Positions 13,738-39,847 of a stretch of DNA of 64,000 bases are shown here, piece by piece. Location of the stretch: NCBI RefSeq assembly GCF_037977385.1, contig NZ_CP150277.1, positions 930,001-994,000 on the forward strand. Direction: 5' to 3'. The notes under the pieces were generated by a model. That model did not search any database. It was given only the letters and a program-made list of their open reading frames with translations, and was not told the origin of the DNA. The position numbers and the translations under genes were made by a program. Within the stretch, counting starts at the first letter, position 1; each line of letters begins with the position of its first letter. The stretch comes from Terribacillus sp. FSL K6-0262. GTDB taxonomy: Bacteria > Bacillota > Bacilli > Bacillales > Amphibacillaceae.

Positions 13738-13870
13738 ACTGTCACCTCCGGAATTCACCTTACATGTATATAAAAATGATCATAGCAAAAGGAGCTGCCG
13801 TAAAGCAACCAGACTATAACATATAACTATTTTAGCACCTTTTGACCGCCAAACAAAGCCAAGCACGATA

Positions 13871-13908
13871 AAAAGAAAAAGCCCGCCTTATCTCATGATA
13901 AAGCGAGC
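13871..13908 (-). terminator. Rho-independent terminator after the peptide-precursor gene
   Basis: On the minus strand, GCTCGCTTTATC pairs over 12 positions (two G-U) with GATAAGGCGGGC, followed by TTTTTC. It ends the regulator-peptide unit 90 nt past the peptide stop. Confidence 0.85.
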
Positions 13909-13997
13909 GATTGAGGGTCTTACTTAAGGGAAATAGTACTTAGTGTATTTATTCGGCGAAGGAATGGATTATCCTTCTAGGAAACTATAAATTAATA

Positions 13998-14132
13998 TTA
14001 GAAATTAGATAGTTTGATGGAAAGTACACCAGGAGTTGCTTCCAATGCTCCATCATTTGAATTAGAACTTCCAACTACTGTACTGATACCTAGAACTGCA
14101 ATTAGACCAGTAACTACCAATAGTTTTTTCAT
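13998..14132 (-). CDS. Putative secreted signalling-peptide precursor of the HTH-TPR regulator
   Basis: A 44-aa ORF with GGGGAG 7 nt before its ATG, starting 13 nt after the stop of the HTH-TPR regulator. It begins MKKLLVV, has a continuous hydrophobic segment to about residue 21, and ends in a polar tail (SNSNDGALEATPGVLSIKLSNF). That is the architecture of Phr, NprX and PapR pro-peptides: exported, trimmed, reimported and bound by the partner's TPR domain. The active peptide is probably in the last ten residues; ending in Phe recalls PapR. No such sequence is known to me, so the signalling role is inferred from form and position. Confidence 0.75.
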   Translation of the reverse strand: MKKLLVVTGLIAVLGISTVVGSSNSNDGALEATPGVLSIKLSNF

Positions 14133-14145
14133 AAATAATCTCCCC

Positions 14146-15411
14146 TTAAAATTTTAAAAGTTTTTGATAACTAGAACTTGCCAACTTATAGAAATGAGCA
14201 GCATTCTTATATTTCTTTAATTTTTCAAAGTGTTCTCCAATCATATTAGCATAATTAACAATGTTGGCATAATCACTTTTTTCTTCTAAGTACGGTAAAA
14301 ATTCATTAATAATTGTATGCTCAAGTTGATTGTATTCTTTATAAATTGCGTATTTGTACACATCCAACTCAAGTTTAAATGTTCGTTTGTTATGAACCGG
14401 AAGCTCTTCTACAAGTTGGTAGTTTTGTTCGAGAATTTCTTTAGCCTCATTTAATCTTCCGCTATTATAATATTCCTTAATTAAAGAAATAACTGTATTA
14501 ATTTGGGTAGCTGTAACATTACTCCCCATCGCATAAGCTTGTTCGAGATATCTTATAGCTTCCTCGCTTTCACCTAGTGTGGAGTGTAAGTATCCTAAAT
14601 TATGATTAGATAGTTGAATTACTTCCGAGTTTTCAGTTATCTCCCCGAGATGTTTCGCCATATTATATTGTTTTATTGCCATATCAATCATGTGCATTCT
14701 TCGATAGCTAATACCCAGGAGAATATGGCACTGTGCACATCTAACAAAGTTATAGTTTTGTCTAAAGACATCAAGTGCCTTATTGGCATGTTCCATTGAT
14801 TTAAGATTGTTAATCAATCTAGTATGAGTGACTGCTAAAGTATAATGGATATCGGCTATATCTGTTTCGGTCAACTCAATATTTTTTATAAGTGATTCGG
14901 CAATCTCATAATAATGAAGTGCTTTGACATTATCATCTTCATTTATTTGATAATAATTACCTAAGTACTTATTCCAAAAGAAATTTTGTTTAGAATCAAA
15001 AGAATACTCCAGATTTCTTAGCTTTTCTATTTGCTCTTTGGTTTTCTGTTCATCGTTACTAACCAAATAGTATCTAACTTTGTGAATCTCAAAAAGAATT
15101 TCGTAATCAGAATTGCTATTCTTAAATAATTGCTCTAATTCCTGGAATCTTGCTTTCTGTTCTTCTCTACTTTTCGTAACATAAAGAAGCGCAAACCATT
15201 CTTCCGCCTTCTCCTTGATCATATCCTCGTTTTCTGCATTGAGCTGAATACCGAGTCGTTCGCATAATAATGCGATGACTTCCGGGCTGGCGTCGGTTTT
15301 TTGATTTTCGATTTTGGACAGATAGGATTCTGAAACAATACCCGCTGCTAGGTCTTCTTGCGTCATGTTTTGCTTTATTCTATGTAGTTTAATTAAAGGG
15401 CCGATTTCCAT
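14146..15411 (-). CDS. HTH-TPR transcriptional regulator of the RRNPP (NprR/PlcR) type
   Basis: A 421-aa protein close to NprR in length. Residues 1-60 form an XRE-type helix-turn-helix (LIKLHRIKQNMTQEDLAAGIVSESYLSKIE). The rest is a succession of TPR-like helical pairs (for example ALHYYEIAESLI, AIKQYNMAKHLGE, AIRYLEQAYAMG). Such proteins bind DNA and a small reimported peptide. ATG 15411 is chosen for GAGGTG at 8 nt and because it begins exactly at the HTH. The gene and its peptide partner are AT-rich compared with gatC and camS on either side and interrupt the usual camS-gatC neighbourhood, suggesting acquisition. Targets are unknown beyond a likely self-operator. Confidence 0.85.
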   Translation of the reverse strand: MEIGPLIKLHRIKQNMTQEDLAAGIVSESYLSKIENQKTDASPEVIALLCERLGIQLNAENEDMIKEKAEEWFALLYVTKSREEQKARFQELEQLFKNSNSDYEILFEIHKVRYYLVSNDEQKTKEQIEKLRNLEYSFDSKQNFFWNKYLGNYYQINEDDNVKALHYYEIAESLIKNIELTETDIADIHYTLAVTHTRLINNLKSMEHANKALDVFRQNYNFVRCAQCHILLGISYRRMHMIDMAIKQYNMAKHLGEITENSEVIQLSNHNLGYLHSTLGESEEAIRYLEQAYAMGSNVTATQINTVISLIKEYYNSGRLNEAKEILEQNYQLVEELPVHNKRTFKLELDVYKYAIYKEYNQLEHTIINEFLPYLEEKSDYANIVNYANMIGEHFEKLKKYKNAAHFYKLASSSYQKLLKF

Positions 15412-15517
15412 TTGGGCTACACCTCGAAACATTTTTTTCTTTCTGAGTAAGAGCTTGTGCCCAAGACCATTGCTGGGATGTGTTCCTGCTTTCATTCTAA
15501 CATATCCCAGCTTTAAG

Positions 15518-15595
15518 TATATTGGGAAAGTAGGGATTAAAGAGTATGCTTCTGTACCTATTTCCCAATTATACTTTCCTAGTCTTGTCTTTAAA
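15518..15595 (-). promoter_or_regulatory. Promoter and inverted-repeat operator of the HTH-TPR regulator
   Basis: On the minus strand, TTTAAA (15590-15595), 16 nt, then TATAAT (15568-15573). The -10 lies in one arm of a 17-nt inverted repeat, 15557-15573 against 15518-15534 (consensus TATAATTGGGAAATAGG, 15 of 17 matching), with a 22-nt spacer. This suggests autoregulation. Confidence 0.55.
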
Positions 15596-36317: not shown

Positions 36318-36357
36318 ATACAGGTGTCGTAGGCTCATAATCATGCAGTCCATCTTC

Positions 36358-36424
36358 CCTCATAGTCCGCTATTTACGGTAGCAGGTAGAGACTTCCGGA
36401 CCATATTTCCGGAAATATATGAGG
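36358..36424 (-). promoter_or_regulatory. Guanine riboswitch (purine aptamer) of the pur operon
   Basis: On the minus strand P1 is CCTCATA/TATGAGG. Core positions match the purine aptamer: ATATATTT, GGAAATATGG, GTCTCTACC and CCGTAAAT, then GGACTATG. The cytosine in GACTATG predicts guanine/hypoxanthine rather than adenine binding. Ligand binding should favour the downstream terminator. Confidence 0.95.
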
Positions 36425-36488
36425 TACGATCTATAAGCACAGCTACGTGCTATGATGTCAAAACTAGCCGTGTCTTTCATGCATGTTT

Positions 36489-39705: not shown

Positions 39706-39751
39706 CCTATCTACACCACATCTGCGTATGTAACCCAGATTGAAATGTCAG

Positions 39752-39814
39752 CGTAGTCAGGTTAATGACGGTAACCTGGTAGAAACTTATGGGCCATATT
39801 CCCAAAATTATACG
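39752..39814 (-). promoter_or_regulatory. Guanine riboswitch of pbuG
   Basis: The minus strand reads CGTATAATTTT, GGGAATATGG, AGTTTCTACC, P3 CAGGTT/AACCTG around ACCGTCATT, then GACTACG. P1 is CGTA/TACG. The cytosine before TACG predicts guanine. The L3 sequence CCGTCATT departs from the common CCGTAAAT. Confidence 0.93.
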
Positions 39815-39847
39815 AAGACGAAAAATATATAGTATCAATACTCTTTC

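Follow-up and report, generated by a model that had tools for sequence, protein, structure and literature searches.

In this work we analysed a putative quorum-sensing pair of Terribacillus sp. FSL K6-0262, found in a stretch of 64,000 nucleotides (nt) of its 3.35 Mb single-contig genome (G000:C1:930001-994000). We call this whole stretch the window, and positions below refer to it. On the minus strand, which carries all features of the locus, the gene order is camS, receptor, peptide open reading frame (ORF), gatC and gatA, where the labels camS, gatC and gatA were given from sequence reading alone. The NprR-like receptor (14146-15411, ATG at 15411, stop codon ending at 14146) has 421 amino acids and combines an HTH_3 helix-turn-helix (HTH) domain at residues 7-57 with tetratricopeptide repeats (TPR). 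This agrees with a sequence-only reading of the same DNA, which had described an HTH-TPR regulator of NprR size; NprR has 423 amino acids. An alternative in-frame ATG at 15495 would give a product of 449 amino acids, but we rejected it and retained the start at 15411 because the upstream start codon and frame vary in an alignment of relatives. The HTH-coding part of the gene covers 15232-15411. The peptide ORF (13998-14132) encodes a putative nprX-like pheromone precursor of 44 amino acids, MKKLLVVTGLIAVLGISTVVGSSNSNDGALEATPGVLSIKLSNF, and its ATG at 14132 sits 13 nt after the receptor stop. It has its own putative ribosome binding site, AAGGGGAG at 14140-14147, and, by hydropathy, a probable export segment of about residues 1-22 (14067-14132, inner boundary estimated), both of which had been described before. 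The terminator that was said to close the unit is also present, as an intrinsic-terminator-like stem of 12 pairs, 6 of them G-C, which lies 3' of the peptide ORF (13908-13881) and is conserved in the genus. The spacer from peptide to terminator (13870-13992) is 86-90% identical in nine other genus genomes, and a search of the other 145 family genomes did not find it.

On sequence grounds we assign the pair to the RRNPP receptor-pheromone pairs of the NprR-NprX type, one of the regulator-propeptide forms that had been proposed. Profile and fold searches of the receptor match NprR and Rap and show the TPR superhelix expected of RRNPP(A) receptors, the fold search giving no separation of NprR from Rap. 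Homology with NprR is collinear over the full length, including the HTH (E 3e-33; 409 columns, E 2.4e-45). We examined 122 receptor places, the window's included. Two receptors, L149 (307 amino acids after a frame break) and L133 (402 amino acids), were excluded from the set of 120 on which alignment, promoter counts and tree are based; this set does contain L155, where a frame break in the HTH makes the first residues possibly non-homologous. Alignment A1 comprises the window and 77 of 120 relatives, and A2 comprises 22 of 63 NprR-like proteins. The receptor shares 25% identity with the NprR-type protein P0121, and the best of the 120 receptors reaches 24.9% (TPR segment). A published rule assigns NprR at the cluster level, by at least 30% identity and 80% mutual coverage between a reference and the best cluster match (PMC10075063); our values were obtained with a reference other than that paper's own. 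Taking the roles of NprR residues from passages of PMC4970707, we find W79 and Y223 kept in 120 of 120 receptors, Y410 in 116 and F225 in 110. Y118, which these passages describe as required for sporulation inhibition in B. thuringiensis, is Lys in 104 receptors, and H201 is replaced by Lys or Arg in 100. For D107, W167, E188 and R343 the aligned partner changes with the alignment used. Of these positions, D107, Y118, E188 and Y223 are the ones by which NprR contacts Spo0F. An interaction of the receptor with Spo0F seems doubtful from its residues.

With NprR-NprX of the Bacillus cereus group the pair shares the HTH and TPR parts, a nearly equal receptor length, the same fold, a short exported-type peptide directly downstream and a Pro as the third of seven core residues (SKPDIVG and ATPGVLS). 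It differs in the low identity, in the changes at Y118 of the Spo0F site and at other contact residues, and in the camS-gatC location and promoter sites, which belong to the Terribacillus pair. Rap-Phr pairs are alike in fold and in the downstream exported peptide, but Rap has no HTH, whereas HTH_3 is present in this receptor.

The association of receptor and peptide is widespread. Of the 122 receptors, 108 have an exported-type ORF whose start lies between -35 and +40 nt from the receptor stop, compared to 11 of 2,420 dinucleotide shuffles of the downstream DNA (L110, with masked bases, was left out of the shuffles). Export was judged by hydropathy, and the criterion was fixed after the first loci had been inspected. 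At the other 14 (L108, one of two in L109, L113, L120, L123, L132, L133 and L134-L140) no such ORF was detected. Several of the peptide-less loci L108, L113, L120, L123 and L134-L140 are still located between camS and gatC and might be orphan receptors; behind the L126 receptor there are two similar peptide ORFs in tandem. The peptide ORF evolves under purifying selection, with a ratio of nonsynonymous to synonymous rates (dN/dS) of 0.19 between the window and L155 (20 synonymous and 18 nonsynonymous changes at 34 and 98 sites) and of 0.04 between L155 and L156 or L157 (13 and 2 changes at 34 and 101 sites). The comparison of the window with L156 or L157 yields no dN/dS because synonymous sites are saturated. 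Thus co-conserved short ORFs do occur behind homologous receptors, and both observations on which the sequence-only reading had made its proposal depend, a conserved small ORF and purifying selection, were obtained.

That reading had looked for the signal in the C-terminal tail, SIKLSNF. What relatives have in common, and what multi-copy precursors repeat, is instead an internal core, here ATPGVLS at residues 32-38 (14019-14039). A loose pattern, xxPx and a hydrophobic residue after residue 20, occurs in 97 of the 108 precursors (raw count), mostly in an EPSIFS-like form, and the core is repeated at least three times in at least 14 of them and ten times in one. Within the genus the cores are ATPGVL[ST], [ND/DS]QPxxYT or three copies of DLQPGAF. 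NprX matures to SKPDIVG according to passages of PMC5641580, and the NprR structure contains the octapeptide SSKPDIVG (PMC4970707). Because the conserved core aligns with these peptides, we predict the signal in the window to be ATPGVLS or EATPGVLS, with approximate ends. An internal signal is not unusual, since some Phr precursors are described as carrying 6-18 residues behind the active pheromone (passages of PMC11343458).

A further result was the uneven conservation along the locus within the genus, for which we compared one genome per species. Nucleotide identity between the window and nine genus relatives is 78-86% in camS, 85-93% in the leader, 88-93% in the HTH part, 86-93% in the spacer, 91-95% in gatC and 84-91% in the available part of gatA. 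The linker and TPR part reaches 78-79% in three relatives and 56-62% in six, and the peptide 67-71% versus 45-53%. Sliding-window identity drops sharply at the TPR part (14146-15050, left edge approximate). For L149 and L150 the flank windows are 92-100% identical (90% in the edge window 15150-15001), inside the cassette identity is 54-75%, and the peptide classes differ. The flank tree groups the window with L153 (99/99), L149 with L150 (100/100) and L151 with L152 and L154 (100/100). The TPR tree follows the peptide classes, which were defined on the peptide and not on the TPR columns: the window with L155, L156 and L157 (100/100), L150 with L151 (99/99), and L149 with L152, L153 and L154 (100/98). 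In approximately unbiased (AU) tests the flank data reject these classes (p 9e-46 for L150 and L151, 2.8e-7 for L149, L152, L153 and L154, and 4.6e-7 for the window's class). The TPR data reject the flank groups L151, L152 and L154 (p 2.6e-50) and L149 and L150 (p 3.4e-90), which were named for this test after the identity comparison had been inspected. The TPR part and the peptide appear to move as one cassette inside the locus while HTH and flanks stay; as a cause, exchange between lineages and a long-kept polymorphism would both fit the tree conflict. Two receptor frames in this set are broken, by one missing base at codon 115 in L149, near the cassette edge, and by 8 extra bases at codon 35 in L155; each could represent signal loss or an assembly error. 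In the pherotype cassettes of agr and comQXP, receptor sensor and signal also vary together between conserved parts, but there the receptors are membrane histidine kinases and the peptides are modified, whereas here the receptor is a cytoplasmic DNA-binding protein. A recombination search among Rap proteins gave no evidence of it, according to passages of PMC5199041.

The receptor is found in all 10 genus genomes, each time with camS and gatC adjoining, and in 100 of 159 family genomes and 25 of 46 genus codes (E <=1e-60). Within 1.5-2 kb per side, 38 of the 122 places have camS and gatC in order, 14 have gatC only, 18 camS only and 52 neither. Among receptor-less genomes (E >1e-60), camS lies on the same strand within the locus in 38 of 57 gatC loci, in 37 of these at 84-620 nt; an empty camS-gatC slot therefore exists. 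The earlier statement that the pair interrupts a conserved neighbourhood is correct only relative to genomes without the pair. The pair is AT-rich, as had been noted, with 32.8% G+C in the receptor against 47.1% in the window. Low G+C is a family trait: the receptor is below both flanks in each of the 38 syntenic loci (mean difference -0.086), and the gap is widest in the window. With the pair at this place throughout the genus and low G+C this general, we rejected a recent transfer of the whole pair, as had been suggested. The correlation between NprR and GatA distances is only moderate (Mantel r 0.52 over 51 pairs, a value reached by 0 of 999 permutations), so that the pair may have moved over longer times.

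The promoter region of the receptor contains a promoter-proximal site, ACTTTCCCAATA (15520-15531, G000:C1:945520-945531), and a distal half-site, AGGAAAGT (15573-15580), with GGAAA located 54 nt upstream of TTTCC. A -10-like TAGAAT (15494-15499) lies 21 nt after TTTCCCAAT, and an inverted repeat with 13-base arms spans it (15472-15511, one mismatch in the window; seen in the sequence and in alignment A4). The words TTTCCCAATA or TTTTCCCAAT, of the TTTCCCAAT type, occur within 300 nt upstream of 91 of the 120 receptors and in 1 of 2,400 base shuffles. The distance from GGAAA to TTTCC in these 91 promoters is 54 nt at 59 loci, 53 nt at 14 and 64 nt at 12, 85 in total. The distances peak again at 45-46 nt (42 occurrences), and with one shuffle per locus no distance was found more than once. 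In 72 of the 91 loci a word matching TATAAT in at least 5 of 6 bases follows at 21 nt downstream (raw count). We consider the paired sites a candidate autoregulatory operator of the receptor. Passages of PMC4970707 describe NprR, when bound to NprX, as a tetramer that has two DNA-binding sites, and by analogy such a tetramer would suit two half-sites; a term search of PMC4970707 and PMC3325205 found no DNA consensus for NprR. The promoter word precedes 90 of 107 receptors with a peptide and 1 of 13 without (Fisher p 5e-8). We do not take this co-loss as proof of autoregulation, as the tree holds four changes of peptide state and independent pairs are not significant; 17 peptide-bearing receptors, including all of L141-L148, have no promoter word. 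The region of about 190 nt upstream of the receptor can fold and is kept at 89-92% identity to the window in the other nine genus genomes. A structured 5' leader RNA was rejected, since the fold has one compensatory pair in 59 and Rfam gave no match that reached its gathering score, and we claim no RNA element here because part of the conserved upstream region is promoter. Elsewhere the window contains two purine riboswitches (Rfam RF00167) on the minus strand, at 36343-36442 and 39734-39835 (81.8 and 80.8 bits).

The exact 12-mer ACTTTCCCAATA has 29 sites in the 10 genus genomes, compared to 5 for a reversed control. Loci for gene assignment were available for 20 of the 29: 8 sites precede the receptor, 5 a Rap-like gene, 4 a gene of cold-shock type (a label from sequence reading alone) and 3 other genes. 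A genome-wide regulon defined by the 12-mer with one mismatch was abandoned as uninformative (in this genome, 19 sites versus 13 for the reversed control). Besides the site at the receptor, this genome has one exact 12-mer, which lies 66 nt upstream of a Rap-like gene of 365 amino acids (G000:C1:2403068-2404165; L232:337-1434, minus strand), with a Phr-like ORF, MTKKRIAAFLVLAALVSSVAGYSFSDQAVKGSLPNAPALTDF, behind it. Its protein matches RapI, RapJ and RapF (E down to 5.6e-29) as well as RapH_N, and the same arrangement is found in 5 of 10 genus genomes, making the Rap-Phr-like pair a candidate second target of the receptor. This genome also encodes a second Rap-like TPR protein of 356 amino acids (L002:1330-2562, minus strand), followed by an exported-type ORF of 48 amino acids ending in FSLNILN. 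In four genus genomes (L220, L231, L233 and L234) ACTTTCCCAATA is found about 210 nt upstream of the cold-shock-type gene.

How else might these observations be explained? That the 44-amino-acid ORF encodes an unrelated small secreted or membrane protein seems very improbable. Its Pfam and NCBIfam matches are weak, as such a protein might lead one to expect, but its position, core motif, tandem cores in relatives and co-segregation with the TPR part all speak for a pheromone precursor. The receptor itself could be Rap-like or bifunctional, with binding of Spo0F or another response regulator as its main output and the HTH secondary. We regard this as improbable, since the HTH is the best-conserved protein part in the genus, 18 of the 47 invariant receptor columns fall within the first 53 residues, and the Tyr at position 118 has so widely given way to Lys.

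The alternatives for the cassette and the operator deserve more weight. The cassette pattern might reflect allelic lineages that are older than the species split and have been kept ever since, or simply a faster evolution of the sensor, a view we find rather unlikely. In the TPR part the other classes have diverged deeply from that of the window, which suits old lineages, as does the sampling of single genomes per species. The near-alike flanks of L149 and L150, which carry different classes, count against this view, although a kept polymorphism still fits. Faster evolution is contradicted by the peptide classes, which form clades in the TPR tree but are rejected by the flank data, because rate alone leaves tree shape unchanged. 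Somewhat less unlikely, though still not what we would expect, is that some other transcription factor, common to RRNPP promoters, binds the promoter sites in place of the receptor. The 12-mer in front of the Rap-Phr-like pair and, in 4 of 10 genus genomes, of the cold-shock-type gene would be consistent with such a factor. Arguing for the receptor, the 14-mer TTTCCCAATATGAA has 17 sites, spread over 14 of 15 family genomes (control 1), and is nearly limited to receptor promoters, with 14 of the 17 exact sites preceding HTH-bearing receptor ORFs, one of them of only 179 amino acids. The promoter word is also missing in 12 of the 13 peptide-less receptors (not significant after tree correction), and inverted half-sites with two spacings about one helical turn apart would suit an oligomer.

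Homology, fold, the co-conserved peptide, purifying selection, promoter words with their spacing and the tree conflict together make it quite likely that the locus encodes an NprR-type cytoplasmic receptor and its pheromone precursor, forming an autoinducing pherotype system of the cassette type. We infer that the 44-amino-acid peptide would be exported via its N-terminal segment and cut outside the cell to about ATPGVLS. The mature peptide would then be re-imported by an oligopeptide permease (the genome has five SBP_bac_5 genes) and bound in the TPR superhelix, turning the receptor into a DNA-binding activator, probably tetrameric. Its likely target is its own promoter, with two half-sites about 54 nt apart, or in some genera 64, which adds about one helical turn, and we propose that receptor and pheromone are therefore autoinduced together; the Rap-Phr-like pair may be a second target. 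The DNA-binding half and the flanks would be inherited together, and the TPR and pheromone cassette, exchangeable or long-kept, would set the pherotype. A stricter version of this is a module swap, in which the DNA-binding half, promoter and slot are fixed, an exchangeable sensor-pheromone cassette sets the pherotype, autoactivation through two half-sites is phased by helical turns, and the system feeds into Rap-Phr. We put this version forward tentatively, as plausible but slightly more apt to fail than to hold.

The pair had been described as unreported-looking, which holds in part. Passages of PMC9765709 report NprR in 21 genera, Virgibacillus among them, and describe repeated propeptides as common, the atypically large ones being repeated in 17 of 17 cases; with Virgibacillus listed, this subfamily probably includes the Terribacillus receptor family. 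Passages of PMC12167742 list nprR for Halobacillus strains, and two relatives carry the name NprR in one source. The pair therefore belongs to a known general type. Terribacillus was not found in the main text of PMC9765709, nor were the cassette and operator in its sections 5 and 7 and further passages. Among the matches listed, the titles and abstract starts revealed no publication on the pair in Terribacillus. No description of the cassette or the operator was found among these matches and the cited passages, and the novelty rests on these two.

Pheromone polymorphism with exchanged receptor specificity is known for membrane-kinase systems. Here the same pattern appears in an intracellular, directly DNA-binding receptor with a constant output half. 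If this is true, lineages could switch the signal they respond to while keeping their regulatory targets. With predicted signal classes, a candidate operator and ten sequenced allele holders, environmental bacteria offer a way to test kin recognition, the co-evolution of receptor and ligand, and which DNA an NprR-like receptor targets.
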